This document shows, piece after piece, positions 3,710-60,017 of a stretch of 64,000 nt of DNA (within the stretch, counting starts at the first letter, position 1; each line of letters begins with the position of its first letter). The DNA is from Zhaonella formicivorans (lineage in GTDB: Bacteria; Bacillota; DUOV01; Zhaonellaceae). The notes beneath the pieces are model-generated. The model searched no databases, had not been told where the DNA came from, and worked only from the letters and a program-made list of their open reading frames with translations. The stretch covers positions 1 to 64,000 of the forward strand of contig NZ_CP085524.1 in NCBI RefSeq assembly GCF_004353525.1, written 5' to 3'. A program made the position numbers and the translations under genes.

Positions 3710-3734
3710 CGCTTAATCCAGAGAGGTGTATGCA

Positions 3735-4961: not shown

Positions 4962-4989
4962 CAAGCCGGTATCGGCTTGCTACAGCAGT

Positions 4990-5153: not shown

Positions 5154-5182
5154 TGCGAAGCTTTGAGTGTGGGAGAGAGCTT

Positions 5183-7284: not shown

Positions 7285-7299
7285 AAGGAGGAGAGAGCT

Positions 7300-8280: not shown

Positions 8281-8283
8281 AGA

Positions 8284-8781: not shown

Positions 8782-9209
8782 TTGCTGTATGTACCAGTGA
8801 AAAAAAAGGCATGCGCAAGAAAAACGTGGGATCGGCGGAACTAAAGGTCAACCATGGCATAGTAGGCGATGCCCATGCAGGAGACTGGCACAGGCAGGTA
8901 AGCCTGTTAGCTATGGAGAGCATTGAGAAAATGCGGCAGAAGGGTTTAAACGTAGGTCCGGGAGATTTTGCGGAAAACCTGACAACTGAGGGAATTGACC
9001 TGGTCAGTCTGCCTGTGGGCACTATACTGCAAATAGGACCCGAGGCCATAGCCGAAGTTACCCAAATCGGCAAGGAATGCCACACCCGCTGCGCTATTTA
9101 CTACCAGGCAGGGGATTGTGTCATGCCCAAGGAGGGCATTTTTGTAGCCATTGTTAAAGGGGGGACTGTCTCCGTAGGAGATACAATTGAGGTGATTCCC
9201 AGTGTTTAA
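8769..9209 (+). CDS. MOSC domain-containing protein
   Basis: A 146-residue stand-alone MOSC (Moco sulfurase C-terminal) domain. The family core is visible: [62 protein letters not shown]. The Cys in KECHTRC is the conserved residue of MOSC proteins, which are thought to carry sulfur or bind the cofactor. Small MOSC proteins are regularly found between moaC and mogA in Clostridia. It overlaps moaC by 13 bp and mogA by 8 bp, indicating one translationally coupled operon. The exact reaction is not known. Confidence 0.92.
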
Positions 9210-9693
9210 AATAGGGATTATCACCGCCAGCGACAAAGGCTCCAGGGGTGAACGGGAGGACTTAAGTGCTCCCGTTATCCGGGAGGAAGTAAGCCACTTA
9301 GGCGAAGTGGTTGAGTACACTATCGTACCTGATGAACAAAATTTGCTGGAAGCAGCAATGATTGAATTCTGTGATGTTAAAGGTGTGGACCTTATCTTTA
9401 CTACCGGAGGGACCGGTTTTTCCCCTAGGGATGTTACTCCCGAAGCTACCATGGCCGTAATTGACCGTCATGTTCCCGGTTTAGGGGAAGTGATGCGTCT
9501 GGAAAGCTTGAAAATTACTCCCAAGGCTATGCTTTCCCGCGCTACTGCCGGGATTAGAAAGCAGACTTTGATTGTTAACTTGCCGGGAAGCCCCAAAGCG
9601 GTGCGGGAATGTCTTCGGGCCATTATGCCGGCGCTATCCCATGGCATGGATATCTTAAAAGGAAGGGCAGGCGAATGTGCAAGGAAGGAATAG
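9202..9693 (+). CDS. mogA: Molybdopterin adenylyltransferase, MogA/MoaB family
   Basis: This enzyme adenylylates molybdopterin so that MoeA can insert the metal. The 163-residue length fits. Conserved motifs are GIITASDKGSRGEREDLS at the start, the molybdopterin-binding TTGGTGFSPRDVTPEAT near residue 73, SRATAGIRKQTLIVNLPGSP near 113, and a terminal ALSHGMDILKG. The GTG start at 9202 overlaps the stop of the MOSC gene. It is the last gene of the riboswitch operon and is followed by two terminator hairpins. MogA and MoaB cannot be told apart with certainty by sequence alone. Confidence 0.93.
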   Translation: MFKIGIITASDKGSRGEREDLSAPVIREEVSHLGEVVEYTIVPDEQNLLEAAMIEFCDVKGVDLIFTTGGTGFSPRDVTPEATMAVIDRHVPGLGEVMRLESLKITPKAMLSRATAGIRKQTLIVNLPGSPKAVRECLRAIMPALSHGMDILKGRAGECARKE

Positions 9694-33830: not shown

Positions 33831-33895
33831 AAAAATCTTAAATTTTCAAACATAAGCAAAAGGATTTTTTGTGGACATGTCGAAATAAGGAAGTA

Positions 33896-33910
33896 AGTCG
33901 ACAATCGACT
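33896..33910 (+). promoter_or_regulatory. Candidate GntR operator upstream of the M24 gene
   Basis: AGTCGACAATCGACT is a palindrome with arms AGTCGA/TCGACT around CAA. The same 14 leading bases recur at 38360 upstream of the SHMT-like gene, and GTCGACAAT is the core of a palindrome upstream of the island's GntR gene (46198-46209). A small hairpin ACGGCG/CGCCGT (33912-33932) follows. Confidence 0.55.
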
Positions 33911-33980: not shown

Positions 33981-35150
33981 TTGCTGCCATTTGAGTTATC
34001 TGAGTACAAGGCAAGAATCAACAAGGTTAAAGAGAGGATGAATGCCCAGGGAATTGAGGTGCTGCTGGTCACCGATCCGGCAAACATGAACTATCTTACC
34101 GGTTATGACGGATGGTCATTTTATGTGCATCAGCTTGTAATTTTAATGATCGATGAAGAGCAACCCATTTGGGTAGGCCGTGGGCAGGATGCCAACGGAG
34201 CTAAAAGGACTACCTGGTTACATTCAGGTAATATCAGGGCATATACCGATGATTATGTACAATCTTTGATTAAGCATCCCATGGACTTCGTTGCCGACAT
34301 TTTAAAAGAAAAAGGTAAAGCAAATAAAACAGTCGGTGTGGAAATGGATGCTTATTACTTTACTGCCAAGTGCTACGAAAGGTTAAACTTGGGTTTACCC
34401 AATGCTAAGTTAAAAGATGCAACCAACTTGGTGAACTGGGTCAGAATAATTAAATCTGATAACGAAATTGCATACATGAAGAAAGCTGCCAGAATAGTGG
34501 AAAAAACAATGCAGATTGCCATTGACGCTATTGATGCAGGAGTAAGGGAATGTGATGTGGCAGCCAAAATCTATCATGCCCAGGTAAGCGGTACGGAGGA
34601 GTATGGCGGCGACTACCCGGCGATTGTGCCATTGATGCCTTCAGGAGAAAAAACTTCCACACCCCACTTGACCTGGTCGGATGAAAGGTACAAAAAAGGG
34701 GATACGGTGATCCTGGAGCTGGCCGGCTGTTACAAGCGTTATCATTCACCGTTGGCCAGAACTCTTGTCATCGGTGAACCTTCTGAAAAAGTAATGAGAC
34801 TGGCTGACGTAGTGGTGGAAGGAATAAATGCTGCCATAGATTTTATTAAGCCGGGAGTAACCTGTGAAGAGGTTGAGCATGTTTGGAAGAAAACAATAGA
34901 GAAAAGCGGCTTTATCAAAGATTCCCGCATAGGGTACTCCATGGGGCTCAATTATCCTCCTGACTGGGGTGAGCATACTGCAAGCTTGAGACCTGGAGAC
35001 AAGACAGTATTACAGCCAAATATGACTTTCCACATGATCCCTGGCATTTGGCAGGACGATTACGGTGTGGAGATCAGTGAGCCTTTCAGGGTAACTGAAA
35101 AGGGCTGTGAACTGTTTGTGAACTTCCCCAGAAAACTTTTCGTTAAATAA
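33981..35150 (+). CDS. M24-family hydrolase resembling ectoine hydrolase DoeA/EutD
   Basis: A 389-residue creatinase/prolidase-fold protein. It starts LPFELSEYKARINKVKERM and carries TDPANMNYLTGYDGWSFYVH, QDANGAKRTTWL, HPMDFVADIL and NYPPDWGEHTASLRPGD, all segments I recall from DoeA (ectoine ring-opening hydrolase). Metal ligands of true M24 peptidases are lost: the two Asp are replaced (VILELAG and HSPLART), the GHG motif reads GYSMG and the EPG Glu is Ile (MIPGIW), as expected for metal-free DoeA/creatinase-type enzymes rather than aminopeptidases. It starts with TTG 33981 behind AAAGGGTGAG. It opens the catabolic island; the substrate is inferred to be ectoine, hydroxyectoine or a similar amide/amidine. 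Confidence 0.85.
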   Translation: MLPFELSEYKARINKVKERMNAQGIEVLLVTDPANMNYLTGYDGWSFYVHQLVILMIDEEQPIWVGRGQDANGAKRTTWLHSGNIRAYTDDYVQSLIKHPMDFVADILKEKGKANKTVGVEMDAYYFTAKCYERLNLGLPNAKLKDATNLVNWVRIIKSDNEIAYMKKAARIVEKTMQIAIDAIDAGVRECDVAAKIYHAQVSGTEEYGGDYPAIVPLMPSGEKTSTPHLTWSDERYKKGDTVILELAGCYKRYHSPLARTLVIGEPSEKVMRLADVVVEGINAAIDFIKPGVTCEEVEHVWKKTIEKSGFIKDSRIGYSMGLNYPPDWGEHTASLRPGDKTVLQPNMTFHMIPGIWQDDYGVEISEPFRVTEKGCELFVNFPRKLFVK

Positions 35151-35200
35151 ATTGTTAATTGTTTTAAATTGTTAATTGTTTTAAATTGTTAATTGTTTTA
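35151..35200 (+). repeat. Triple 17-bp tandem repeat before the TRAP permease genes
   Basis: Three head-to-tail copies of ATTGTTAATTGTTTTAA (35151, 35168, 35185; the third one base short) lie right after the M24 stop codon and about 45 bp before the small-permease start. No gene is present. Confidence 0.8.
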
Positions 35201-35243
35201 CTGCTGCAGCAGGTTCTAACCAATTTGCGGAGGGGGGAACACG

Positions 35244-35774
35244 ATGAGAAAAATAGATAAGGTTATTGACCAGTTTGAGGAGTTTGTGCTAAGCGCCTCT
35301 ATTATCCTAATGGCAATAATCCTGATTGTTAATGTTTTTTTCAGGACTGTTTTAAACAGCAGCCTGACTTTTGCTGAAGAGGTCGGGCAATTTCTGGTCA
35401 TTGTCAATACTTTCATGGGCATAAGTTACTGTGCTAAAAAGGCAAGACATATCAACATGTCAGCTGTTTTCGATTTGGTGCCTTTGAAGGTCAAAAAGAT
35501 ATTTATGCTTGTTATTTCCAGTTTAACTTCAGTTTCCATGTTTTATTTAGCTTATTTGGCGATGCAGTATGTACAAAAAGTAGCCATGCTAGGCAGGGTA
35601 TCGCCTGCCTTAAGAATTCCAATGGAATATTTCTTCATCTTTGTACCGCTGGGGTTTTTTACTGCCGGAATTCAGTATGCCCGCAACTTCATTAAAAATA
35701 TCAGGGAAAAAGACGTTTACCTTTCTGATCAGAGAAAATTTGAAAGTGCCGGAGGTGAAAGCGGATGGTTTTAA
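35244..35774 (+). CDS. TRAP transporter small permease subunit (DctQ type)
   Basis: A 176-residue membrane protein with four hydrophobic segments (about 14-35, 48-66, 88-108, 130-150) and the DctQ pattern NVFFRTVLNSSLTFAEEVGQFL and YCAKKARHINMSAVFD. DctQ subunits pair with DctM to import organic or amino acids with Na+ after delivery by a DctP binding protein. The ATG has GGAGGGGGGAACACG upstream. It overlaps the DctM gene by 10 bp, so translation is likely coupled. Confidence 0.93.
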   Translation: MRKIDKVIDQFEEFVLSASIILMAIILIVNVFFRTVLNSSLTFAEEVGQFLVIVNTFMGISYCAKKARHINMSAVFDLVPLKVKKIFMLVISSLTSVSMFYLAYLAMQYVQKVAMLGRVSPALRIPMEYFFIFVPLGFFTAGIQYARNFIKNIREKDVYLSDQRKFESAGGESGWF

Positions 35775-37045
35775 CACTGGTTGCAACTATGTTGTTTTTT
35801 CTCATCTTGGGTTTCCCAATGTTCATGTCAATGCTTGTAGCCCCTTTGATAGTCATGCTGCTCTATATACCCCAGCTTGATCCGGCACTTTTAACGCAGC
35901 AGCTGATTGCGGGCGTGCAACCTTTTGTACTCTTGGCAGTGCCCATGTTTATCTTTGCCGCCGATTTAATGTGCGTAGGTCAGACGGCTAACCGGCTACT
36001 GGACTTTGTGGAGGCTTTTGTAGGTCATATCCGCGGAGGTCTTGCTATTACTACCTCTGCCGCCTGTGCCTTTTTCGGCTCCATTTCCGGTTCATGCCAG
36101 GCAACGGTGGTTGCTATTGGCAAACCTATGCGACAAAGGATGCTGCAGGCCGGCTATCATGACAGTAACGTCATGGCATTGATCATCAACGCTGCCGAAC
36201 TGGCGCTGCTTATACCTCCCAGCATCGCTATGTTGATGTATGCCGTGGTAACAGGTTCTTCGGTCAGTGAACTCTTTATAGCAGGAATTGGTCCCGGGTT
36301 GTTAATATTATTATTCCTGGCAGTCTATAACTGGTTCATGGCCAAGAGAGAAAATATTCCTGTAATCCCAAAAGCCAGCTGGCGGGAAAGATTCAGGGTA
36401 ACGAAAAGGGCTTTGTATACCTTTGGCTTCCCTCTAATCATCTTAGGCGGAATCTATACCGGGTTCTTCAGCCCCACTGAGGCGGCAGCGGTATCAGTCC
36501 TTTACGCCCTTATTCTTGAGCTGTTTATCTACAAGTCAATAACAGTCAAAGATATTCCAAGGATTGCCTTGTCAACAGGTTTGGTAACTTCGGCAGTATT
36601 TATTCTGGTAGCGGGCGGAAATGCTTTTTCCTGGGTGATTACATTTGCCCGGATTCCCCAGCTTTTGACCGACAATTTACTTGGTTCAAACCCTAGTGCC
36701 TTAACTGTATTGTTTGCAGTAACAATTTCATATTTTATTGCATGCATGTTCGTCGATTCCATTGTGGCCATACTGGTATTGACCCCTATTTTCTTCCCGC
36801 TGGCAATGCAGGCAGGGATTGACCCGATTCACTTGGGGATAATTATCACTTTGCAGGCAGCTATTGGGGCTTCCACTCCGCCCTTCGGGTGTGATATTTT
36901 CACAGCAGTTGCCGTATTTGAGAGGCCTTATTTTGAGGTCATCAGAAAGGCTCCACCATATATAGCCATATTTGTGCTTGGGAATATTCTTCTGATTTTC
37001 TTCCCGCAAATTGCGTTGTTTTTAAGAGATGTAGTTATGAGGTGA
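35765..37045 (+). CDS. TRAP transporter large permease subunit (DctM type)
   Basis: A 426-residue protein with about 12 membrane segments, the transporting subunit of a TRAP system. Family motifs include QQLIAGVQPFVLLAVPMFIFAADLM near residue 39, SAACAFFGSISGSCQATVVAIG near 96, NAAELALLIPPSIAMLMYAVVTG near 140 and TPPFGCDIF near 372. It follows DctQ with a 10-bp overlap; the DctP partner is encoded at 39875. Ectoine TRAP systems (TeaABC, UehABC) have the same three-part form, but substrate cannot be read from the permease. Confidence 0.95.
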   Translation: MVLTLVATMLFFLILGFPMFMSMLVAPLIVMLLYIPQLDPALLTQQLIAGVQPFVLLAVPMFIFAADLMCVGQTANRLLDFVEAFVGHIRGGLAITTSAACAFFGSISGSCQATVVAIGKPMRQRMLQAGYHDSNVMALIINAAELALLIPPSIAMLMYAVVTGSSVSELFIAGIGPGLLILLFLAVYNWFMAKRENIPVIPKASWRERFRVTKRALYTFGFPLIILGGIYTGFFSPTEAAAVSVLYALILELFIYKSITVKDIPRIALSTGLVTSAVFILVAGGNAFSWVITFARIPQLLTDNLLGSNPSALTVLFAVTISYFIACMFVDSIVAILVLTPIFFPLAMQAGIDPIHLGIIITLQAAIGASTPPFGCDIFTAVAVFERPYFEVIRKAPPYIAIFVLGNILLIFFPQIALFLRDVVMR

Positions 37046-37136
37046 TATTAGCGCGCTGAGATTATTAACCATCAGGTTAATATCTCGTCTAAGAAAAACT
37101 CTAAAGCTTTGGTTACATTGTTTGGAGGCATCCGTA

Positions 37137-38312
37137 ATGGATATAAAAAAGGAAGTTGCCCTTTTAAACGATGAGTTGATTAAGCTGAGACAGGATTTTC
37201 ATATGCATCCCGAACTGGGGTATGAGGAATACAGGACTTCTAAAATTGTAGCAAATTATCTTGAGGAATGCGGGTTGGAGGTTAAGACTGTAGCCAAAAC
37301 AGGCGTGGTGGGCTTACTGCGGGGACGAGAACAGGGCCGGACGGTGCTCCTGCGTGCCGATATGGATGCCCTTGCCCAGACTGAAATGAATGACGTTCCC
37401 TATAAATCAGTTTACGAGGGTAAAATGCACGCCTGCGGCCATGACGGTCACACCGCTATGCTGCTGGTTGCGGCGAAAATCTTGTCCCGCTGCAGGGATC
37501 AGCTAAAAGGAAACATCAAGTTTGTATTTCAGCCCAACGAGGAGACTGCCGGTGCTTTGGACATGATCAACGAGGGTATTCTGGAAAACCCCCGTGTGGA
37601 TGCTGCCTTTGGACTCCATCTATGGACGCCTATTGAAAGCGGGAAAATAGGGTTGGTGGCCGGTCCTACCATGGCAGCTAACGAAGAGTTTGAGCTGGCA
37701 ATTATCGGTAAGGCAGGCCATACCTCTTCACCTCAAACGGCTGTGGACCCGATTATAGTAGCGGCTACTATTGTGCAGAGCTTGCAGACCGTGCAGACCA
37801 GGGAGTCCAGTGTTTTAACCCCCACCTTAATCATGTTCGGGAAAATACAGGGTGGCACGGGTCGCAACATTATAGCCGATAAAGTAGAGCTGGGGGGCAC
37901 CATCAGGTATCTCTACGAAGATGAGGTCAGGAATAAAGAGCTGCTCAAGGAAAAATTTGAAAGAGTGATTAAGGGTATCTGCGCAGCAATGAGAGCGGAG
38001 TATGAGATGAAGTATATCCCCAGCAACCCGTCTGTAATGAATGATCCTAAGATGGTGGAGCTGGTAAGAACAGCTGTTAAAGAGACTCTGGGCAGCGAAA
38101 GTGTAATTGTACCATATCTCTGTATGGCAGGTGACGATTTTGCGGAATTCACCCACCGGGTACCCAGCGCCTACTACTTTGTAGGCACTGGCAATAAGGA
38201 GAAGGGTACCGATTATCCTCACCACCATCCCCGGTTTAACATTGATGAGGATACCCTGGCCACCGGTGTAGAGCTGCATGTGCGTACCGCTTTAGCTTTC
38301 TTAAATGATTAG
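37137..38312 (+). CDS. M20 family metallo-amidohydrolase
   Basis: A 391-residue zinc-type amidohydrolase of the AbgB/IAA-amino-acid hydrolase/N-acyl-amino-acid deacylase group. Catalytic pieces are visible: DFHMHPELGYEEYRTS at 20-35, LLRADMDALAQ near 79, GKMHACGHDGHTAMLL with the metal Cys-His near 100, QPNEETAGALDMI near 132, and HHHPRFNIDEDTL near the end. A typical dimerisation lid (about 180-295) is present. ATG 37137 is chosen because TTGGAGG lies 8 bases before; the in-frame TTG 37122 falls in that ribosome site. In this island it could remove an acetyl group from a ring-opened intermediate; that is inference. Confidence 0.93.
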   Translation: MDIKKEVALLNDELIKLRQDFHMHPELGYEEYRTSKIVANYLEECGLEVKTVAKTGVVGLLRGREQGRTVLLRADMDALAQTEMNDVPYKSVYEGKMHACGHDGHTAMLLVAAKILSRCRDQLKGNIKFVFQPNEETAGALDMINEGILENPRVDAAFGLHLWTPIESGKIGLVAGPTMAANEEFELAIIGKAGHTSSPQTAVDPIIVAATIVQSLQTVQTRESSVLTPTLIMFGKIQGGTGRNIIADKVELGGTIRYLYEDEVRNKELLKEKFERVIKGICAAMRAEYEMKYIPSNPSVMNDPKMVELVRTAVKETLGSESVIVPYLCMAGDDFAEFTHRVPSAYYFVGTGNKEKGTDYPHHHPRFNIDEDTLATGVELHVRTALAFLND

Positions 38313-38359
38313 AAAGACACCGATGTTTCCGGTGTAATGAGAAGTTAGTCATATAAAAA

Positions 38360-38374
38360 AGTCGACAATCGACC
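38360..38374 (+). promoter_or_regulatory. Candidate GntR operator upstream of the SHMT-like gene
   Basis: AGTCGACAATCGACC differs in one base from the site at 33896. A further half site AGTCGATT lies at 38407-38414. It is about 80 bp before the SHMT-like start. Confidence 0.55.
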
Positions 38375-38452
38375 GATATCTATATATTGTATTCTTTTTA
38401 GGTAACAGTCGATTATTAAATGCAATAAAACGTTGTTCTGGGAGAGTGACAA

Positions 38453-39679
38453 ATGATTTGGAGCATAAAAGACATAGACGAATTGTTGCAAAAACACATA
38501 GCCTACAGAGAAAGTTGCTTGAACCTAATAGCATCTGAAAACTACTCCAGCCCCACTGTCCGTAACTATTTGACTTCGGACTTTGGCAACCGCTACGGCT
38601 GCTATGTAACATTAAAGCCTGAAGAAAGAGAGTACCGGGGAAACAAATTTATCCATGAGTTTGAGATTGCCACACAGAAATTAGTTGGCGAAGTGTTTAA
38701 AGCGACATATGTGGACTTGAGACCTATTGGAGGCCATATGGCCGGGGTGGCTACTGTTTTAGGATTGCTTTCTCCTGGCGACCTGGTCTTTGAGATTCAT
38801 TTAAAGGATTGGGGTCACGGTTTGGTTGGCCCTATGCGGACAGTGTCACATTTTAACCAGACCATCAGGGTTGACTCCATACCTTTTGATGAAGACCGCA
38901 TGGTTGACTTAGATAATCTTCTTAAAATGATTCATGAGCAAAAGCCTAAAATGATCATCTTCGGCGGGTCAGGCATGTTATTTCCTGAGCCAATTAAAGA
39001 GGTAAAGGCAATTGCCCAACAAGAAGGGATCATTTTAGCCCACGATTCATCCCATGTGACTGGCCTGATTGCCGGGGGAGTGTTTCCTAATCCTTTAGAC
39101 GAGGGTGTGGATGTAATGTTTGGCAGCACCCATAAATCATTTCCCGGTCCACAGGGTGGATTTATAGCTTCAAGGAACCTTGAATTATTTGAAAAAATTG
39201 GCAATACTTTAGCATCCGCTTTGGTAACCAGCCACCATTTGAACCGTCTCCCTGCTTTAGCTGTAGCCATGTTGGAAATGAAAAAATTCGGCAGGGCTTA
39301 CGGGGAACAGGTTATCAAAAATTCCAAAGCTTTAGGTAAAGCTATGGAAGAATGTGGATTTAAGGTTGTAGGCGCAAGAAAAGGTTACTCTGAAACTCAC
39401 CTTATTCTGGTAGATGTACGCGAGTTTGGCGGTGGCAAGAAAGTATCATTGCAGCTCGAAGAAGCTAATATCCTCTGCTCAGACGACTTTGGTCAACTGG
39501 ACAATGAAATTAGGATTGGGACAGCGGAAGTCACCCGGCGGGGAATGAAAGAGGCGGAAATGAAGCAAATAGCCGAACTTATTAAGCGGGTAATAATTGA
39601 TAAAGAAGACATTGCCGGCGTAGCAAAGGACGTAAGCAATTACGCCCGGATGTATCTTGGTTGTGAATATTCTTTATAA
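38453..39679 (+). CDS. Serine hydroxymethyltransferase-like PLP enzyme
   Basis: A 408-residue PLP enzyme of the SHMT fold. Conserved parts include SCLNLIASENYSSPTVRNYL at 20-40, DLRPIGGHMAGVATVLGLL near 90, DSSHVTGLIAGGVF near 198, and the PLP Lys in GSTHKSFPGPQGGF near 227. These mark the family, but overall it is divergent from housekeeping GlyA, and several folate-contact regions look different. Enzymes of this type cleave or form the bond between glycine and an aldehyde. Its place between an amidohydrolase and a binding protein, with an aldehyde oxidoreductase nearby, suggests aldol cleavage of a beta-hydroxy amino acid rather than one-carbon metabolism. ATG 38453 has GGGAGAGTG upstream. 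Confidence 0.82.
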   Translation: MIWSIKDIDELLQKHIAYRESCLNLIASENYSSPTVRNYLTSDFGNRYGCYVTLKPEEREYRGNKFIHEFEIATQKLVGEVFKATYVDLRPIGGHMAGVATVLGLLSPGDLVFEIHLKDWGHGLVGPMRTVSHFNQTIRVDSIPFDEDRMVDLDNLLKMIHEQKPKMIIFGGSGMLFPEPIKEVKAIAQQEGIILAHDSSHVTGLIAGGVFPNPLDEGVDVMFGSTHKSFPGPQGGFIASRNLELFEKIGNTLASALVTSHHLNRLPALAVAMLEMKKFGRAYGEQVIKNSKALGKAMEECGFKVVGARKGYSETHLILVDVREFGGGKKVSLQLEEANILCSDDFGQLDNEIRIGTAEVTRRGMKEAEMKQIAELIKRVIIDKEDIAGVAKDVSNYARMYLGCEYSL

Positions 39680-39874
39680 GTATGAAGTATGGGTTGCTGT
39701 TTTTCAGCAGGCAAATGTTTCAAAGTACTAATAATAAAAAAGCTGTTAAAATGTTATAGTGTCAATTAAAAAAGGAGGTGGTTTCTCGGCTTTTAGAAGT
39801 ACTATTTCCTCAAAAAGTTGAAACTGGCAATGGGAGTTTTGGGAAGCTGCGTAAAAAATAAGGGGGATTTAAGT

Positions 39875-40951
39875 ATGAAAATGAAAAAAATTTTAGTGGT
39901 GTTGACGTCAATGTTATTAATTGGCACTTTACTCGTAGGTTGTGGCGGTAAGAGCGGGCAATCTTCCGGCGGAAACGGCAGTGCCGACGCGGGTAAAACT
40001 TATGTTTGGAAATTTGCCCATGAAGAGATTGACGGCAGTGTTCAAGACCTCTATGTTAAGAAATTTAAAGAGATCATTGAGAAGAAATCCAACGGAAAAA
40101 TAAAAATTGAAATTTACCCGGTAGGACAGTTGGGTGATGCTACCCAACAAGCTGAACTGCTGCAAAACGGCGGTATTGAGTTTGCGATCGTGTCCCCTGG
40201 TAATACCGGTACATTAGTTCCGGAAAACCAGCTGTTTTCTCTGCATTACCTGTTATCTCCCAACATGGAAGTCAATAAGAAAGTTATGAAAGAAAGCAAG
40301 GCCTTAAATGAGGACCTTTCAAAACTGTATGAGGAAAAGAATATTAAGGTTCTAGCCTACTGGACTGAAGGGTTTATGAACTGGACCAGCAGCAAGCCCC
40401 TGAAGAAGCCTGAAGATTTTAAAGGCTTTAAAATGAGAACAATGCCCTCACCAATGATCGTAGCAGCATACGAAGCTTATGGCGCCAACCCGACCCCTGT
40501 GCCTTATATGGAAGTATACAGTGGCTTGCAGTTGAACATGATCGAAGGTCAGGAAAACCCGCTGTTTGCTATTGAAGAAATGAAGTTTTATGAAGTGCAA
40601 AAGTATCTGACACTTTCAAATCACAGCCTATACGTAACAACAACCGCAACAAATCCCCAGTTCTTTAATTCTCTGCCCAAAGATATTCAGCAAATGGTGT
40701 TAGACACCGTTGAAGAATTAAGAGAATATTCTTTTGATATTCAACAGGAGTTAAATGATAAAGCGCTGGAAAAAATCAAGAGCAAGAGCGATATTCCCAT
40801 TGTTGAGCTCACACCTGAAGAGACTGCTGCTTTCAGGGAGGCAAGCATGAAAGCCAGAGATAAATATGTTGAAATGGTTGGCGAAAAAGGTAAGGCCATT
40901 ATGGAGAAATTAGCTCAAGAAGTTATTGAAGCCGAAAAAGCAATGCAATAG
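39875..40951 (+). CDS. TRAP transporter substrate-binding lipoprotein (DctP type)
   Basis: A 358-residue extracellular binding lipoprotein. The signal peptide ends in LLVGC (Cys at about 23), followed by a Gly/Ser linker and a DctP domain with YVWKFAHEEIDGSVQDLY near 46, KIKIEIYPVGQLGDATQQAE near 78 and KMRTMPSPMIVAAYEAYGANPTP (split across 185-210), the region holding the carboxylate-binding Arg. It works with DctQ and DctM encoded 3-4 kb upstream. ATG 39875 follows AAGGGGGATTTAAGT; upstream in-frame ATG 39818 would spoil the signal peptide. The ligand is unknown. Confidence 0.94.
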   Translation: MKMKKILVVLTSMLLIGTLLVGCGGKSGQSSGGNGSADAGKTYVWKFAHEEIDGSVQDLYVKKFKEIIEKKSNGKIKIEIYPVGQLGDATQQAELLQNGGIEFAIVSPGNTGTLVPENQLFSLHYLLSPNMEVNKKVMKESKALNEDLSKLYEEKNIKVLAYWTEGFMNWTSSKPLKKPEDFKGFKMRTMPSPMIVAAYEAYGANPTPVPYMEVYSGLQLNMIEGQENPLFAIEEMKFYEVQKYLTLSNHSLYVTTTATNPQFFNSLPKDIQQMVLDTVEELREYSFDIQQELNDKALEKIKSKSDIPIVELTPEETAAFREASMKARDKYVEMVGEKGKAIMEKLAQEVIEAEKAMQ

Positions 40952-40973
40952 TTGTACACTGTGTTTAGTTAGC

Positions 40974-41010
40974 CAGGGGTAATTGTAAATTACCCCTGCG
41001 CTTTACTATT
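40974..41010 (+). terminator. Terminator after the binding-protein gene
   Basis: CAGGGGTAATT (40974-40984) and AATTACCCCTG (40988-40998) are exact complements with a 3-base loop, followed by CGCTTTACTATTTT. Confidence 0.65.
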
Positions 41011-41077
41011 TTCCGGTTTTGCAATTCAACCCGTTGTGTCGTAGCTGCTCTTTTTGACGAGCCTTAGAGTGCTCTGT

Positions 41078-41144
41078 GCAGAGTATTAATTGGGGACATT
41101 CCCCGAACAAATATAAATCTTGCATAGGGGTGTGTCCCCTGACC
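41078..41144 (+). repeat. REP-like element (GGGGACATTCCCC type)
   Basis: AGTATTAATTGGGGACATTC and ATAGGGGTGTGTCCCCTGA flank an AT-rich core, giving GGGGACA/TGTCCCC inverted pairs. Similar GGGGAC repeats are common in Firmicute genomes and are thought to be spread by REP-associated Y1 transposases. A second GGGGACGGTTCTC element lies at 54144-54216. Confidence 0.5.
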
Positions 41145-41290
41145 TCTGTCCGACCGAGCAGCATGGACTCACGAAGCGCTGGAACGGTAGGATAAAGCGA
41201 GAGCCGCGTGCCGCTAGAAGTTAAACAATGAATAGTTTAAACGCTGTCGGCGAAGTCATCCCGAGCAGCGGACACAAGGGTTATTTTTTG
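41145..41290 (+). other. Unassigned structured intergenic segment before the AOR gene
   Basis: About 146 bp, GC-richer than its flanks, with no open frame. TGTCCG (41146-41151) can pair with CGGACA (41269-41274), CCGAC (41150-41154) with GTCGG (41246-41250), and TTAAAC (41221-41226) with GTTTAA (41235-41240). It does not match any riboswitch class I know. It could be a leader RNA of the AOR unit or a degraded repeat element. Confidence 0.35.
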
Positions 41291-41336
41291 AGGGAAGTCT
41301 GAAAAATAATTGTGTAATTGAGGGGAGATTTTGCAC

Positions 41337-43226
41337 ATGTTCCCAGATGCGAGAATCCTAGATGTTGACCTTACTAATCAAAGAATTGGCACAAAAATTC
41401 TTCCGGGAGAAATATATCGCCTTTACCCAGGCGGATCAGCATTAGGGGTCTATTTATTGCTGCAGGAAATGGAGCCAGGTGTAGATCCTTTATCTCCGAA
41501 TAATATGCTTGTATTTTCTGTGTCACCGTTAACAGGCCTGCCCATTAGCGGGATAAGCCGGGTTACCGTTACTACAAAGAGCCCCTTAACAGGGACCATT
41601 GGAGACAGCCAAGCCGGTGGTTTTTTCCCGGTCCATCTCAAAGCTAACGGTTGGGATGCTGTGCTATTTAGGGGGAAGGCAGAAAAACCGGTATATCTTT
41701 ATATTGACGGAGAAAAAGCGGAGCTAAGGCCTGCTGAACATCTCTGGGGCAAAGTAACCGGGGAAGCTGAAAAACTAATAAAAGAAGAAATTGGTGACGA
41801 CCGTCTGGAGGTTGCCCAAATAGGGCCGGCTGGAGAGAAATTAGTGAAGTATGCATGTATTATCAACATGTCCAACAGGGCCAACGGGCGGAACGGAACC
41901 GGTGCAGTTATGGGTTCGAAAAATCTAAAAGCGGTAGCGGTTAAAAAAGCAAAGCCAATTGCTCCCTTTGATAAAGAAGGTTTTTCAACTTTAACAAAAA
42001 ATATATTAGAAAGGCTGAAAAATAATCCGACTGTTGACGGCTTAGGTAAATATGGAACAGACGGAGATCTGCTGGGATTCCACGAGGCAGGATTTTTGCC
42101 CACCAAGAACTGGACTACCGGTTGGTTCCCGGAGGGTGCGGAGAAAATCACAGGTACAACTATGTACGATACAATTCTGGTTGAACGCGATACATGTTAC
42201 GGCTGCGCGGTAAGATGCAAACGGGTGGTGGAAGTACCCGGTAAAGTGGATCCTTTCTATGGAGGACCGGAATACGAAACTTGTGCTACTTTTGGTTCCT
42301 ATTGCGGAATTACCAGCCTTGAAACTGTAGCTTTGGCAAACCAATTATGCAATATGTACGGTCTTGATACAATTTCATGTGGTGCAACAATTGCATTTGC
42401 TATGGAGTGTTATGAAAAAGGACTGATTAATAAAAATGATACCGGTGGTTTAGAACTGAACTTCGGCAATAGTGAAGTTGTGCCAAAGCTTGTGGAAATG
42501 ATTGCTAAGCGGAAAGGTTTCGGCGATTTGTTGGCTGAAGGAAGTTATCGGGCAGCCCAAAAAATCGGTGGCGACGCACTGAGCATGACCATGTCTGTAA
42601 AAGGCCAGGAACTGCCGGCCCACATGCCTCAGTTTAAACCGGCAGTTGGTCTAATTTACGCTGTAAATCCGTTCGGAGCTGACCATCAGTCCAGCGAGCA
42701 TGATTCTTTCCTGACTATGCCCCCTGACAGCCAGGAAAGACGCTGGATAGCCCAAATTGGTACCTGGAAAGGATATGAAGACACCTTTGAACTCGATGAT
42801 GAAAAAGTCCGTTTTGCTTTTGACAGCCAGTGCTATTTTTCAATCTTGGATACCCTCTGCCTATGTCAATTTGTCTGGGGCCCATGTTGGGAACTTTACG
42901 GGCCGTCGGATTTAATAGATTTGTGCAAATATGGCATCGGTTGGGAAACTTCGCTCTTTGAATTAATGCGCGTTGGCGAGCGCCGGATTAACATGATGCG
43001 GTATTTTAATGCCAGGGAAGGATTCACCAAAGCGGACGATTATCTGCCTGAGAGAATGTTTACTCCTCTACCTGACGGACCTTCCAAAGGGGTATGCGTA
43101 GATAAGGAAAAATTTGCGACTGCATTAAACACTTATTATCAGTTTGCCGGGTGGGATCCGGAAACCGGCAATCCAACAGAAGCAACGTTAAGAAAGCTCT
43201 CATTAGGCTGGCTCCTTGATAAGTAG
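41337..43226 (+). CDS. Aldehyde ferredoxin oxidoreductase family protein (tungsten type)
   Basis: A 629-residue AOR-family enzyme that oxidises aldehydes to acids with ferredoxin, using a bis-pterin tungsten (rarely molybdenum) cofactor and one 4Fe-4S cluster. Cluster Cys are CYGCAVRC (287, 290, 294) and one in DTLCLCQF (508 or 510). The N-terminal domain has YPGGSALGVYLL and GDSQAGGFFPVHL; cofactor contacts include NRANGRNGTGAVMGSKNLKA. No signal peptide, so it is cytoplasmic. ATG 41337 is preferred because GAGGGGAGA is 8 bases upstream; TTG 41331 is the alternative. A ThiS/MoaD-like gene follows 43 bp later. Substrate unknown; the island suggests an aldehyde from aldol cleavage. Confidence 0.94.
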   Translation: MFPDARILDVDLTNQRIGTKILPGEIYRLYPGGSALGVYLLLQEMEPGVDPLSPNNMLVFSVSPLTGLPISGISRVTVTTKSPLTGTIGDSQAGGFFPVHLKANGWDAVLFRGKAEKPVYLYIDGEKAELRPAEHLWGKVTGEAEKLIKEEIGDDRLEVAQIGPAGEKLVKYACIINMSNRANGRNGTGAVMGSKNLKAVAVKKAKPIAPFDKEGFSTLTKNILERLKNNPTVDGLGKYGTDGDLLGFHEAGFLPTKNWTTGWFPEGAEKITGTTMYDTILVERDTCYGCAVRCKRVVEVPGKVDPFYGGPEYETCATFGSYCGITSLETVALANQLCNMYGLDTISCGATIAFAMECYEKGLINKNDTGGLELNFGNSEVVPKLVEMIAKRKGFGDLLAEGSYRAAQKIGGDALSMTMSVKGQELPAHMPQFKPAVGLIYAVNPFGADHQSSEHDSFLTMPPDSQERRWIAQIGTWKGYEDTFELDDEKVRFAFDSQCYFSILDTLCLCQFVWGPCWELYGPSDLIDLCKYGIGWETSLFELMRVGERRINMMRYFNAREGFTKADDYLPERMFTPLPDGPSKGVCVDKEKFATALNTYYQFAGWDPETGNPTEATLRKLSLGWLLDK

Positions 43227-43269: not shown

Positions 43270-43467
43270 GTGTTAATCTATGTAAATGAACAGGAGACAA
43301 CGGTGCCCGAAAATTTTTTGCTTGTTGATTTATTGCGGGAACTGGGTTTTAGTAACCGTGTGGCAATTTGGATTAATAACGTCCAAATTTTACAGAGAGA
43401 TTACATTACGCGGCAATTGCAAGAGAATGACCGGGTACGAATTGTCAAACCTTTGGCGGGAGGATAG
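43270..43467 (+). CDS. ThiS/MoaD family sulfur-carrier-like protein
   Basis: A 65-residue beta-grasp protein ending LAGG, the C-terminal Gly-Gly that is adenylylated and thiocarboxylated in MoaD and ThiS. MLIYVNEQETTVPENFLLVDLLRELGF and ENDRVRIVKPLAGG fit the fold. It follows the AOR gene closely. In this setting it more likely serves the tungsten pterin cofactor (MoaD-like) than thiamine, since no thiamine gene is near; small MoaD-like genes beside AOR are common in anaerobes. GTG start at 43270 follows GCGGGTGATAAA. Confidence 0.87.
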   Translation: MLIYVNEQETTVPENFLLVDLLRELGFSNRVAIWINNVQILQRDYITRQLQENDRVRIVKPLAGG

Positions 43468-43471
43468 TTTA

Positions 43472-44116
43472 ATGAGGGTAATTGATTTAACTCATGTTAT
43501 TTCACCAGGGATGCCGGTTTACCCCGGTACGGAACCCCCGCTTTTTGCCAGCGCTTGCACTTTGGAAGAACACGGCTTCAGGGAAATGGCCCTTAGGTTG
43601 TATACTCATACGGGCACCCATCTGGACAGTCCAGCCCACATTTTTCCGGGTGGGCTGACTGTGGATTTGTTCCCCATCGGGCATTTTACAGGTAAGGGCA
43701 TTGTCGTTGATTGTTCCGGTTTAGCCCTGGGACAGAAGATTAATTTGGAACAGATACTCCTATACCGGGAGGAATTGTCCCAGGTGGATTTTGTGCTCTT
43801 TTACACCGGCTGGAGCCATAAATGGGGGCATGCCGGATATTACAAGGATTTTCCCGTGCTGACGGAAAAAGCGGTTCAATTCTTGTTGGAATTCAGGATT
43901 AAAGGAGTGGGGATTGACGCCATCTCAGTAGATTCGGTTGATGCCTCGATGCTTCCTATCCATAAAATGCTTTTGAGCCAAAATATTATCATTGTTGAAA
44001 ATCTAAAAAACCTGGAGCATTTACTTAACCGGAAATTCATCTTCAACTGCTTCCCTTTAAAGATTGAAGGAGCCGACGGCTCTCCCGTCCGGGCAGTGGC
44101 TTTTTTAGAAGAATAG
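43472..44116 (+). CDS. Cyclase family protein (kynurenine formamidase-like)
   Basis: A 214-residue metal-dependent hydrolase of the Cyclase/KynB fold. The start MRVIDLTHVISPGMPVYPGTEPP and the metal motif HTGTHLDSPAHIFPGG (near residues 50-65) are diagnostic. Later parts (FVLFYTGWSHKWGHAGYYKDFP, GVGIDAISVDSVDAS) complete the site. Members hydrolyse N-formyl amides, cyclic ureides or lactones. ATG 43472 with GGGAGGATAG upstream is the start; an earlier frame overlapping the ThiS gene is rejected. It is 4 bp after that gene, so probably in the AOR operon. Substrate unknown. Confidence 0.9.
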   Translation: MRVIDLTHVISPGMPVYPGTEPPLFASACTLEEHGFREMALRLYTHTGTHLDSPAHIFPGGLTVDLFPIGHFTGKGIVVDCSGLALGQKINLEQILLYREELSQVDFVLFYTGWSHKWGHAGYYKDFPVLTEKAVQFLLEFRIKGVGIDAISVDSVDASMLPIHKMLLSQNIIIVENLKNLEHLLNRKFIFNCFPLKIEGADGSPVRAVAFLEE

Positions 44117-44167
44117 AAATTGCGCGGCAAAAAATCGTTTAAAAAATTGTATGGGAAGAACAATAGG

Positions 44168-45382
44168 ATGCTTAAAATGATTAAGGCAAGCACTGGTACA
44201 AATTCAACGCTTCGCCTTTTGGAACTGCTTATTTTTTTGTTGTCCATAGGCGAGGGCTTAACAGCCCCTGCTATTCCACTTTTGGGACAAAAGCTGGGCG
44301 CTTCCTACAGTTATATCGGCTTTTTCATGACCGGTTATGCTTTTGCTTATGCTTTGATGACAATTATTGCCGGCAGATTGTCGGACCACCTGGGGAGGAA
44401 AAGATTATTGCTTTTTAGCACTGCGGTAGCTATGTCAGCAACTGCCGGCTATTACTTTGCTTCAAATGCCTGGCTTTTAATGCTTTTCAGGGCGTTGGAA
44501 GGGATGAGCAGGGGGATTTTCTGGCCTGTAGCAGGGGCCCTCTTAGCTGATAATACTACGTCAGCAGATAGCAATTTAGCTGCTGGCAGGTTTTCTGCCG
44601 CTTACGGCACAGGTGTGGCGTTGGGGAATCTCTGGGGGGGATATTTAATGCAGTATGTAGATTTAAAAGCAGTTTTTCCCTTTTACCCTTTCCTGTCTTT
44701 GGCGGCATTCTTTTTGGTCTCGTGGTTTCTTAATGAAAATAAAGTGGCGCAGCAAGCAGCATACCATAAAAGATTAAAAACGGGAAGCATTGCCTGGCAA
44801 GAAATTAAAAGGATTTGGCCTATTTGTTTTGTGGGATTTGCTTACTCCGGATTTCTTTACTCACTTTCCGGGTTGTTATCGCTGGTTGCTGTCCATTACA
44901 ATGTTTCTTACCTGGGCATCGGGGTGATTTTTGCCCTATTCTGGTGCTGTCGCCTGATTGCATTTGTAGGGGCAGGTTGGTCAGCAGGCAGGATCGGATG
45001 CAAACCGGTGCTGCTGGCTGGGATTGCACTGGCGGCTTTGGCTGCGGCCATGTTTTTAATGGCTAGACAGTTCTGGCTTATTGCTGCTGCCGCTGTATTA
45101 GGGGGTATTGGAACAGGGATCATGTACCCTCTGACAGTTGCACTAATTGCGGATTCCGCTTCGCCAAGCTACCGTGGTTTTGATATGGGTTTTATGGAAC
45201 TGACGGCTGCTTTAGGGATGATCATCCAAACTGCCTTGGCAGGCATATTGGGTCAACTGGGAGGTGTGCAGATAACCTACCTGTTTGCACTGGTGGTTTG
45301 TTTAATTGCCATTGTTATTACTGCTCTGTTTGTGAATGATAATTTTATACAAACTGATGGGGGACAACATTCCCTGGGCTAA
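44168..45382 (+). CDS. MFS transporter
   Basis: A 404-residue major facilitator with about 12 membrane segments. The A-motif between TM2 and TM3 is visible as GRLSDHLGRKRLLL near residue 75, and RALEGMSRGIFWPVAGALLAD near 110 is typical of drug/metabolite exporters. It starts about 50 bp after the cyclase gene, at ATG 44168 (alternatives TTG 44120 or ATG 44177; the ribosome site is weak). It may export an end product of the island, or import a substrate; the sequence does not decide. It converges on the GntR gene. Confidence 0.88.
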   Translation: MLKMIKASTGTNSTLRLLELLIFLLSIGEGLTAPAIPLLGQKLGASYSYIGFFMTGYAFAYALMTIIAGRLSDHLGRKRLLLFSTAVAMSATAGYYFASNAWLLMLFRALEGMSRGIFWPVAGALLADNTTSADSNLAAGRFSAAYGTGVALGNLWGGYLMQYVDLKAVFPFYPFLSLAAFFLVSWFLNENKVAQQAAYHKRLKTGSIAWQEIKRIWPICFVGFAYSGFLYSLSGLLSLVAVHYNVSYLGIGVIFALFWCCRLIAFVGAGWSAGRIGCKPVLLAGIALAALAAAMFLMARQFWLIAAAAVLGGIGTGIMYPLTVALIADSASPSYRGFDMGFMELTAALGMIIQTALAGILGQLGGVQITYLFALVVCLIAIVITALFVNDNFIQTDGGQHSLG

Positions 45383-45448: not shown

Positions 45449-46138
45449 TTACGCCGGCGGGTTTTGTAGCCGTTTCGCCTGCGCTTCATCCTTATAGATT
45501 ACAATATGTTCTTTTAGCGCTTTCTTACAATTTTCTAAATCTTTCTCCCGTAAATACTTAATAATGTTATAATGATCCTTAGCAGTTTTAATTAGGCTCC
45601 CTGTCAATTTGGTATCAATGACCATAGCCATCTGCAGCTGAGAATAGAGATCGGAGAGGATTTTAAAACGCCTGGCGCTGCCCGATTTTTGCCATAGGAA
45701 TTTATGAAACTCCATATCCTTTTTGTTAATGCCCAGGATTTTGTGTATTTCGTCTTTTTCCTCTTGGGAAATGGCGATCATGTCGTCGATGATACGTTCC
45801 AGCTCTTGGAAATCATCTTCGGTTAATTTGTTATCATTTATGAGGATTTCCAGCACGCTGTTTTCCAAGAGCAGCCTGATATCAAAGACTTCCTTTACAT
45901 CATCCATTGTTAATTTGACAACGTAATTACCTTTGCGGGGGATTGTTTTTATTAATCCTTGGTTTTCCAGCTCCTTTATTCCTTCACGGACGGGAGCCCG
46001 GCTGGTACCTAACTCTTTAGCCACTTCGGCTTCCAAGATATGATCCCCTTCTTTATATTCACCTGAAAGTATTTTGCTTCTGATATATTCAACAACAATG
46101 GAGCTTAAACTTTTGTGTTTAAAACTCTCATTATTCAT
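45449..46138 (-). CDS. GntR family regulator, FadR subfamily (FCD domain)
   Basis: A 229-residue regulator. An N-terminal winged helix-turn-helix (SSIVVEYIRSKILSGEYKEGDHI, then LGTSRAPVREGIKELENQGLI, about residues 10-70) is followed by an all-helical FCD ligand domain (VFDIRLLLENSVLEILI; conserved Asp/His in EFHKFLW and KDHYNIIKYL) that usually binds an organic acid through a metal. The start at 46138 is preferred over upstream in-frame starts because it leaves the standard N-terminus with a G-rich ribosome site. A palindrome ATTGTCGACAAT lies about 60 bp upstream. It likely controls the island and itself; its ligand is unknown. Confidence 0.9.
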   Translation of the reverse strand: MNNESFKHKSLSSIVVEYIRSKILSGEYKEGDHILEAEVAKELGTSRAPVREGIKELENQGLIKTIPRKGNYVVKLTMDDVKEVFDIRLLLENSVLEILINDNKLTEDDFQELERIIDDMIAISQEEKDEIHKILGINKKDMEFHKFLWQKSGSARRFKILSDLYSQLQMAMVIDTKLTGSLIKTAKDHYNIIKYLREKDLENCKKALKEHIVIYKDEAQAKRLQNPPA

Positions 46139-46197: not shown

Positions 46198-46209
46198 ATT
46201 GTCGACAAT
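46198..46209. promoter_or_regulatory. Candidate autoregulatory GntR operator
   Basis: ATTGTCGACAAT is a perfect 12-bp palindrome upstream of the GntR gene. Its core GTCGACAAT matches the sites at 33896 and 38360. Confidence 0.6.
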
Positions 46210-46361: not shown

Positions 46362-46391
46362 TTGACATCTCGGGAATATGTCTGCTAAAAT
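46362..46391 (+). promoter_or_regulatory. SigA promoter of the pur operon
   Basis: TTGACA (46362-46367) and TAAAAT (46386-46391) are 18 bp apart. The transcript would begin about 46398, ahead of the PRPP riboswitch. Confidence 0.75.
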
Positions 46392-46430
46392 TAGGATAAG
46401 CGAGAAGAATATCTGCAAAGTCCCAAAAGC

Positions 46431-46626
46431 CGAAAGTATACCTAGGGCAGACGGAGGCTACGCCTCCGTAGTCATTAGTCCTTGGTCGTTAGTCCTTAGT
46501 AAAATGCTTAAAAACTGACGACTAATGACAAACGACTAACGACTCGTTCAAAGGTCCATGTCCGAGTGGTACAGGCGTGGTTGCCACGTTACACCGGAGG
46601 GATTAAAGCCCAGACGGGTAGGTTTC
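46431..46626 (+). promoter_or_regulatory. PRPP riboswitch (ykkC subtype 2b) with an inserted repeat in P2
   Basis: The 5' part GAAAGTATACCTAGGG (46432-46447) and the 3' part, with TGTCCGAGTGGTACAG (46560-46575), GTTACACCGGAGGGAT (46588-46603) and AGCCCAGACGGGTAGG (46607-46622), are the conserved strands of the PRPP-sensing ykkC class, found upstream of purine genes in Clostridia. P1 closes as GAAA with TTTC. The P2 region is expanded: after hairpin ACGGAGGC/GCCTCCGT (46451-46469) lies a heptamer inverted repeat (46470-46546). The terminator's 5' arm overlaps the aptamer 3' strand, so PRPP binding should favour read-through. Confidence 0.85.
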
Positions 46627-46660
46627 AGCTTATGCTATAACCTGCCCGACTGGGCTTTTC
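46605..46660 (+). terminator. Terminator of the PRPP riboswitch
   Basis: AAAGCCCAG (46605-46613) pairs with CTGGGCTTT (46650-46658), and CGGGTAGGTT (46615-46624) with AACCTGCCCG (46639-46648), with one A/A mismatch between. The left strand is also conserved aptamer sequence, so the two folds exclude each other. Confidence 0.88.
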
Positions 46661-58616: not shown

Positions 58617-60017
58617 CTACGCAGTAGCGGCTAGTGCCCTGAGGGCCTTGGTCAATGGACTCTGGGGTCCTTTCAGGATGGGCATATTCCGAATCATTTC
58701 TATTGCCACGTTCCTTTGGATTGTTCTCTTGGCCCTTTTTAGTTTTTCTGCGTCTACCTGTAACGCTTTTACCGGTTGTTTTTGCTGGGCCAGGTATATT
58801 TCCTTTATATTTAACCCGTTGGCTTTGGCTGCCCGAAGGCTGGCCATTTGTTCGGCTCCTGCTTTGCTCCATCCCCCTGGCCGATTGCTTAATCTGGCAG
58901 ATAGTATATGGCTTACGTGTCCTTCTGCGCTGCATCCCTGCACTTCTTCACGGTATCGGTTACGCGCTTCTATCCCATCCCACTGCCCCCGAATGTACCG
59001 CTTCGTTTTTGTAATCGCTTTCTGGCGCTCTGGACGGAGTTTTTGGGCTTTATCCAATACAACCATTACTTTTTCCAAGTCACTGCGCTTTATATGTTCC
59101 CAAAGGGCTGCTTGTAGTTTGGGCTCAGGGCCTACAGCGGCTATTATATATTTGCTCAGGTGGAAGAGGTCAAGTATAAATATGGACTTGGGTATTATTT
59201 CTGTTCCGCTGCGAATCCACGCTGCTCCGTCCCCGTTTATATAAATCCTTTCTATCTGGTCTAGTTCATATTGCTTTTCTATATAGTCAAGGACAGCAAA
59301 CCATAAGTCGTCAATGGTCTTGTACGGTCCGCTGAAATAGCGGGCATTCCGGAGCCGGTTCCTACCCCGGCTTGCTTTTTCTATTCCTTCATGTACATAG
59401 ATCAACGGTATTTGCATCCGTCCCTTTTTTCCCCACTGGGCTACGTGGTCCTCGTCTGCTTCTATGTACAAAATCCTCACCCTTCGCTTTTGCGCAGGTA
59501 TTATATCATCGCTACTCAAGGGCACTTTAATTCTGTCTATGGTATTCTTGACTGTCTGTCCACTCAAACTTTCTCCCCATCCGTACTGCTCCGGCCCTCT
59601 GCCGCTACGACGGTAAGATTGTTCGGTAGCCATGTCAGCCAATACGGACTTAGCTGCTGCATCCACCCGCATGTGTGGTGTATATCCGGCATAGTCGTCA
59701 ACTAAATGAGCGTAGGATTGGGTTTCTTTATGGTAAAAGTAGGTACGATGATAGCTCATTTCTCCAAAGACTGTGACCACATGTTTCTCTTCTTGACGCC
59801 GCTCAACCACCCAACCGGGACGTTCTTCCCGGTGCTCAACCAGATAAGCATCCTGGGTTTCCAGGACCATCTTCAGTATGTCTTTTCCCAATTGGTTAAG
59901 GATCTCTTTAACCTTGATTTCCAACTCCGGATATGTGATTTTTCTCTCTAAAGCCTCAATTACGTTTTCCCCAACCAGCAGGAATTTATCCCATAAGTGT
60001 TGAATTATCTTTTCCAT
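58617..60017 (-). CDS. ISLre2 family transposase (UPF0236)
   Basis: A 466-residue transposase. Marks of the family are VTVFGEMSYHRTYFYHKETQ near 82, SYRRSGRGPEQYGWGESLSGQTV (about 135-157, two parts), YIEADEDHVAQWGKKG near 185, RIYINGDGAAWIRSGTEIIP near 260 and ILDLFHLSKYI near 283; the acidic residues in EADEDH and NGDGAAW are likely catalytic. No frameshift or stop interrupts it. The ATG at 60017 is preceded by GAGGTGAGGTCTT, a ribosome site that lies in a 12-bp inverted repeat. Confidence 0.94.
   Translation of the reverse strand: MEKIIQHLWDKFLLVGENVIEALERKITYPELEIKVKEILNQLGKDILKMVLETQDAYLVEHREERPGWVVERRQEEKHVVTVFGEMSYHRTYFYHKETQSYAHLVDDYAGYTPHMRVDAAAKSVLADMATEQSYRRSGRGPEQYGWGESLSGQTVKNTIDRIKVPLSSDDIIPAQKRRVRILYIEADEDHVAQWGKKGRMQIPLIYVHEGIEKASRGRNRLRNARYFSGPYKTIDDLWFAVLDYIEKQYELDQIERIYINGDGAAWIRSGTEIIPKSIFILDLFHLSKYIIAAVGPEPKLQAALWEHIKRSDLEKVMVVLDKAQKLRPERQKAITKTKRYIRGQWDGIEARNRYREEVQGCSAEGHVSHILSARLSNRPGGWSKAGAEQMASLRAAKANGLNIKEIYLAQQKQPVKALQVDAEKLKRAKRTIQRNVAIEMIRNMPILKGPQSPLTKALRALAATA

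Follow-up and report, generated by a model that had tools for sequence, protein, structure and literature searches.

A candidate anaerobic unit for 5-hydroxyectoine breakdown in Zhaonella formicivorans, with an SHMT-like enzyme and a tungsten-type aldehyde oxidoreductase

A group of genes at 33.9–46.2 kb in the first 64,000 nucleotides of the Zhaonella formicivorans contig NZ_CP085524.1 (forward strand; this whole stretch is hereafter the window) is likely to be an anaerobic catabolic unit for 5-hydroxyectoine that would work by C–C cleavage, with acetate and two glycines as products; we infer its substrate, catalytic steps, their order and its regulation from sequence. The cluster (Table 1) encodes an M24-fold relative of the ectoine hydrolase DoeA/EutD, a tripartite ATP-independent periplasmic (TRAP) transporter, an M20 amidohydrolase, a pyridoxal phosphate (PLP) enzyme resembling serine hydroxymethyltransferase (SHMT), which we call SHMTL, and an aldehyde:ferredoxin oxidoreductase (AOR) with a ThiS/MoaD-like protein. 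The TRAP system would import 5-hydroxyectoine, the DoeA-type protein would open its ring to N-acetyl-hydroxy-DABA, the M20 protein would remove acetate to give 3-hydroxy-2,4-diaminobutyrate (hydroxy-DABA), and SHMTL would split hydroxy-DABA by a retro-aldol reaction into glycine and aminoacetaldehyde. AOR (an aldehyde dehydrogenase, ALDH, in Tissierella praeacuta) would oxidize aminoacetaldehyde to a second glycine, with electrons passing to ferredoxin (or NAD(P)), and glycine reductase would convert the glycines to acetate and ammonia; the net reaction would be C6H10N2O3 + 3 H2O -> acetate + 2 glycine + 2[H]. On balance we favour seeing in this a fermentative route of anaerobic Bacillota that replaces EutABC, in which a folate-free SHMT-fold hydroxy-DABA aldolase and a tungsten AOR would give two glycines along with acetate and reduced ferredoxin and so feed glycine reductase. 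The first-pass annotation of this DNA had sketched its core (deacetylation of the opened ring, cleavage by an SHMT-like enzyme, oxidation by AOR), and that sketch is now largely, if indirectly, supported by an exchange of AOR for ALDH, the exclusion of EutB, gene co-occurrence, the loss of folate-site residues and shared operator-like sites.

EutD was reported to convert hydroxyectoine to hydroxy-alpha-N-acetyl-2,4-diaminobutyrate (hydroxy-alpha-ADABA), and hydroxy-DABA was detected in cells (PMC8739950). By our own derivation, (4S,5S)-hydroxyectoine should give (2S,3S)-3-hydroxy-2,4-diaminobutyrate, which has the relative configuration of L-allo-threonine, and E. coli SHMT favours the allo form (Km 1.5 mM and kcat 30/min for L-allo-threonine, 43 mM and 4.3/min for L-threonine; PMC3697235).

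SHMTL scored 309 bits against the NF000586 model, for which the cut-off is 335, and its closest relative in the PDB is the SHMT of Methanocaldococcus jannaschii (4bhd). With this enzyme and with GlyA it shares the fold family, the PLP lysine and the catalytic Asp, His and Arg; in E. coli GlyA numbering, K229, D200, H203, H126, R363, S175, Y55 and Y65 were retained in all 18 SHMTL copies that we compared. It differs from them at the folate-site residues, the same 18 copies having T or G at E57, E or D at Y64, G at L127 and D at N347; in addition S99 is replaced by H, and there are a three-residue insertion and an altered flap (the 'QGGPLMH' loop) and C-terminal segment. E57, Y64, L127 and N347, which we take to be folate contacts, are all intact in the GlyA of the window's own genome, and E57 and N347 are intact in the archaeal SHMT. 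This pattern points to an enzyme in which the PLP machinery is kept and the folate site is gone; two of the changes put acidic residues in folate's place, a setting that would favour a cationic aminomethyl side chain. Together the SHMTL copies make up a single clade (58–67% identity to the window protein) separate from the M. jannaschii SHMT and the bacterial GlyA proteins included. We also considered SHMTL as the housekeeping GlyA and rejected this, as a canonical GlyA is encoded at 90.6 kb and SHMTL lacks the folate-site residues. An AlphaFold model of SHMTL was of middling confidence (predicted local distance difference test score, pLDDT, of 71).

EutABC was reported to be required for hydroxyectoine use in Ruegeria pomeroyi, its precise activities being described as unknown (PMC8739950), and SHMTL together with AOR or ALDH would take its place here. 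When we searched with a EutB profile built from anaerobes, the matches split into a group of 505–578 bits, lying beside DoeA, and another of 300 bits or less. EutB was found in none of the 17 genomes with both SHMTL and DoeA, as against 7 of the 11 with DoeA and no SHMTL (Fisher p 2.8e-4; Moorella, G306, is counted as lacking SHMTL from a check near DoeA only), and within one order the counts were 0/10 and 6/10 (Fisher p=0.011). The EutB-like matches of ~230–300 bits in SHMTL genomes were considered as possible EutB and rejected given the clear gap to the higher group; in the window's genome there was no EutB match at E<=1e-50, and the best match to TIGR02991 scored 78 bits. The Geosporobacter cluster is the most direct comparison: it has close orthologs of the M24, DctQ, DctM, M20, DctP and GntR proteins (M24 and DctP ~70% identical), and its DctP site residues and operator-like site are those of the window cluster, but EutB stands in place of SHMTL and AOR. 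The EutB and SHMTL versions therefore appear to act on one substrate, with the beta-hydroxy intermediate processed differently in each, and, with EutB swapped for an aldolase-type enzyme, that intermediate is probably a free beta-hydroxy amino acid.

A different use of the same genes would be the degradation of ectoine itself, with SHMTL acting as a diaminobutyrate (DABA) aminotransferase and AOR or ALDH oxidizing aspartate semialdehyde to aspartate, in parallel to the chemistry of DoeD and DoeC. Ectoine too would be handled by DoeA and the transporter, and the cluster has no aminotransferase of a known kind; however, retro-aldol chemistry is typical of SHMT folds, SHMTL retains the catalytic residues and is altered on the folate side alone, and EutB, which SHMTL apparently replaces, is tied to hydroxyectoine and not to DABA transamination, so we think this very unlikely. 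As a separate observation, a second type of DoeA (53–58% identical; loci L128, L130 and L131) comes with EutB and a 243-residue protein resembling Asp/Glu racemases; at L130 a RidA-type deaminase adjoins EutB, an arrangement consistent with a dehydratase route in anaerobes.

For the proposed cleavage route, a further line of evidence is the recurrence of the gene set. A genome scan with the window M24 protein identified 78 DoeA loci, which were followed up by tblastn and maps of open reading frames (ORFs), and further genomes were found by a reverse search with SHMTL. The order GntR-M24-Q-M-M20-P-AOR-MoaD-SHMTL occurs in two Tissierellia metagenome-assembled genomes (MAGs) and two Acidaminobacter (L013, L015, L020 and L021) and at five further loci (L107, L108, L109, L110 and L114), nine other genomes in all, and there are shorter or shuffled forms at L084, L085 and L106; unlike this usual order, the window cluster has SHMTL ahead of DctP. 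Among the 18 genomes with SHMTL, DoeA is adjacent to it in 13 and present somewhere in 17, and in one order of 148 genomes, SHMTL was found in 10 and DoeA in 20, with all 10 SHMTL genomes among the latter (nominal P=1.8e-10); as the genomes of a clade are not independent, this value and the Fisher values above overstate the case and are guides only. The first-pass annotation had looked to co-occurrence in other anaerobes as a check, and with a conserved cluster, a genome-wide tie of SHMTL to DoeA and the exclusion of EutB, the outcome was strong. Full-length GRDB (glycine/sarcosine/betaine reductase) was present in 7/7 SHMTL genomes checked, and the window's own genome has three copies. One Clostridia MAG (G043) has three DoeA loci with AOR (L084, L085 and L127), two of them with SHMTL, and one of its DoeA loci lies directly ahead of an SSS symporter and sarcosine-reductase-like GrdG/GrdF genes.

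AOR has AFOR_N and AFOR_C domains, with Pyrococcus furiosus AOR (1aor) as the closest solved structure, and is predicted to be of the tungsten type. In T. praeacuta (L012), the slot of AOR and its MoaD-like partner is occupied by an aldehyde dehydrogenase, the best NCBIfam models for which include betaine-aldehyde and aminobutyraldehyde dehydrogenase types. This exchange is what an amino-aldehyde oxidation step would lead one to expect, and it therefore supports the role in aldehyde oxidation that had been suggested for AOR. Some 25 kb upstream (3726-9693), translations judged by eye revealed pterin-cofactor-like genes (two MoeA-like, and MoaA-, MoaC- and Mog-like), which could be a source of the AOR cofactor.

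The M24 protein has Pfam M24 and Creatinase_N domains, and DoeA (TIGR02993) is by far its best NCBIfam family (528 bits, full length); in the PDB its best match is likewise DoeA (6twk/6twj, 413 bits), the next M24 enzyme scoring 121 bits. These matches group it with DoeA/EutD, as had been supposed at the outset. The first-pass annotation had also described its metal ligands as lost, and in our alignment the five positions that we take to be the metal ligands of prolidase are indeed replaced, in the same way as in 6twk. Since the solved DoeA has the same replacements, the ligand loss is characteristic of the DoeA family and favours the DoeA assignment. A Glu aligned with Glu255 of 6twk, presumably of functional importance in DoeA, is conserved in all M24 copies compared (ILELAG versus FFEIAG). 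We conclude that the protein is a DoeA relative, with hydrolysis of ectoine or hydroxyectoine as its predicted activity. The M20 protein is 59–69% identical to the M20 proteins of other SHMTL clusters and matched the NCBIfam models CpsA (395 bits) and DoeB2 (274 bits), each under its cut-off.

The placing of this M20 protein in the pathway bears on a second possible order of steps, in which the hydrolase would produce a gamma-N-acetyl form whose alpha-amine is free, SHMTL would cleave this directly to glycine and N-acetylaminoacetaldehyde, AOR would produce N-acetylglycine, and M20, as an enzyme of the N-acyl amino acid hydrolase type, would release acetate and glycine at the end. The closest PDB relatives of M20 belong to the indole-3-acetic acid (IAA)-amino acid/aminoacylase branch (1ysj, 1xmb and 6slf), which would suit such a role, and a review notes both alpha- and gamma-N-acetyl products for ectoine hydrolase (PMC5924519). 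EutD was, however, reported to make the alpha-N-acetyl form, from hydroxyectoine as well (PMC8739950), with which no PLP Schiff base is possible, and the same type of M20 is found in EutB clusters too, which suggests that it acts ahead of the branch point; we regard this order as unlikely and prefer deacetylation before cleavage.

For uptake, the top PDB matches of DctP were 4pfi, TeaA (3gyy/2vpn) and UehA (3fxb), TeaA and UehA being its best named relatives. Of the residues that we take to contact the ligand (TeaA numbering), the polar E9, R144 and N184 are retained in 20/20 DctP proteins compared. The expectation of a DctP with ectoine-site residues thus held for the polar positions and failed for the aromatic ones, as described below.

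The 15-bp element AAGTCGACAATCGAC is repeated exactly before the M24 gene and before SHMTL, where 0 such repeats are expected by chance, and the palindrome at its core, ATTGTCGACAAT, is found again upstream of the GntR and DoeA genes of most related clusters and, in some of them, of AOR or DctP as well. These shared putative sites support the control of SHMTL together with the hydrolase, and the GntR protein would control the unit through the ATTGTCGACAAT sites. A further match at 13987 was taken as chance, as it lies inside an unrelated gene. Separately, clusters of Virgibacillus and Lentibacillus (L014, L016, L022, L026, L028, L029 and L034), where EnuR has been reported absent, have ATTGTCGACAAT or a near match ahead of DoeA and ahead of a distant GntR gene (~27% identical), and the palindrome is a candidate ectoine regulon site there.

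Several observations weigh against our assignment. The M24 protein falls below the curated TIGR02993 cut-off of 613 bits and the M20 protein below the curated one of DoeB2; the presumed aromatic cage is altered in the window DctP (F66 to N, W167 to Y, F209 to Y and W188 to A); and AOR family enzymes have a broad substrate range. EutB and SHMTL are both missing from four DoeA genomes, and five SHMTL copies lie away from DoeA in varied contexts, four of these five genomes having a DoeA, while genome G796, the main counter-example, has SHMTL without DoeA. With five copies elsewhere, the idea that SHMTL is exclusive to DoeA clusters was rejected. One copy away from DoeA (L112, 9139-10326, in genome G1231) has in-frame stops and is probably a decaying gene; given the five distant copies, G796 and these stops, SHMTL may act outside the hydroxyectoine pathway. 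The changed DctP aromatic residues, the SHMTL copies in other gene contexts and the M24 score under the DoeA cut-off would all fit a system in which a drifted DoeA and TRAP handle another compound (another cyclic amidine or an N-acyl beta-hydroxy amino acid) and SHMTL is a general beta-hydroxy amino acid aldolase. We consider such a substrate distinctly unlikely, since the EutB-type cluster of Geosporobacter, with its DctP site and its degree of M24 and DctP identity, suggests that the ligand belongs to the class handled by a hydroxyectoine cluster.

The genes that the first-pass annotation had named, their shared direction and their coordinates were all confirmed by the ORFs and domains (DctQ, DctM, DctP, M20, SHMT and AOR). 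The unit is larger than the 33981-43226 stretch it had delimited; a MoaD-like gene does exist, but beyond the end at 43226 within which it had been placed. The GntR gene is counted in the unit because its relatives precede DoeA in other clusters, and we consider the cluster more than a chance grouping because the gene set recurs in many species and the exact 15-bp element is repeated. A 48% identical relative of the Cyclase-family gene lies near one G043 cluster (L084), and the transporter gene that follows was not seen in the related clusters compared.

Table 1. Genes and operator-like sites of the cluster, in window coordinates (MFS, major facilitator superfamily)
Feature	Position	Strand	Basis or remark
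Operator-like site AAGTCGACAATCGAC, ~72-76 bp before M24 gene	33895..33909	+	exact 15-bp repeat
DoeA/EutD-type ectoine/hydroxyectoine hydrolase (M24 fold, metal ligands replaced), predicted	33981..35150	+	TIGR02993, 6twk match
TRAP small subunit DctQ	35244..35774	+	PF04290
TRAP large subunit DctM	35765..37045	+	PF06808, TIGR00786
M20 amidohydrolase, presumed deacetylase of ring-opened (hydroxy)ectoine	37137..38312	+	PF01546; start by homology
Second copy of AAGTCGACAATCGAC element, ~80-84 bp before SHMTL	38359..38373	+	exact 15-bp repeat
SHMT-like PLP enzyme (SHMTL), proposed folate-independent hydroxy-DABA aldolase	38453..39679	+	PF00464, 171 bits
DctP, TRAP substrate-binding lipoprotein, TeaA/UehA-like	39875..40951	+	PF03480; likely start by homology
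AOR, predicted tungsten-type	41337..43226	+	PF01314/PF02730; likely start by homology
ThiS/MoaD-like protein, 65 aa, GG at C-terminus	43270..43467	+	family match; adjoins AOR in ten full clusters
Cyclase-family hydrolase, uncertain member of system	43472..44116	+	PF04199
MFS transporter, uncertain member of system	44120..45382	+	domain match
GntR/FCD regulator	45449..46138	-	50-63% identical to GntR preceding DoeA in related clusters
Perfect palindrome ATTGTCGACAAT, operator-like, ~60 bp before GntR gene	46198..46209	.	recurs before GntR in most related clusters

Purine genes, named by eye, lie on both sides of the cluster (purL before, purE/purB after), and Rfam had no match inside it. Between the M24 gene and dctQ (35148-35200), a 17-bp unit, TAAATTGTTAATTGTTT, occurs three times in perfect tandem. 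In the purE leader (46362-46660) lie a promoter-like match, which is strong, and a hairpin of 25 nt; no Rfam family reached its gathering score there, and a weak Guanidine-I/ykkC-type match (46539-46618; 19 bits, gate 63) makes a phosphoribosyl pyrophosphate (PRPP)-type ykkC variant possible. A 466-residue ORF on the minus strand (58617-60017) has, by eye, the look of a UPF0236/transposase-type protein.

With the R. pomeroyi uehABC-eutABCDE-ssd-atf and Halomonas elongata doeABCD systems, the window cluster shares DoeA/EutD ring opening, a deacetylating amidohydrolase, TRAP uptake with a TeaA/UehA-like protein and a regulator of the GntR superfamily, which is FCD-type here and MocR-type (EnuR) there. 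Unlike them it has no EutABC, EutE, Ssd or Atf, and has SHMTL and AOR-MoaD instead (ALDH in T. praeacuta); in the published pathway, hydroxyectoine degradation is treated as leading to aspartate. The window AOR shares the AFOR domains of the P. furiosus enzyme and differs in its ThiS/MoaD-like gene, its catabolic cluster setting and its proposed substrate, aminoacetaldehyde. A survey of EutD clusters from 2026, which reaches Bacillota and Clostridia, focused on EutB-bearing matches, and neither SHMT nor AOR is described in the sections consulted (PMC13188858); the putative Bacillota/Thermodesulfobacteriota clusters presented there have DoeA, M20 and TRAP in common with ours but carry EutB (and EutC/EutA or RidA). 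An anaerobic, aldolase or AOR route for ectoine or hydroxyectoine breakdown was not found in the open-access literature searched.

Ectoines are widespread nitrogen-rich compatible solutes, and the cluster would connect these salt-stress solutes with Stickland-type glycine fermentation. It would also give a physiological role to an uncharacterized AOR and to an SHMT-fold subfamily that is at present annotated as SHMT, and, as the cluster occurs in culturable strains, this role can be tested in them.

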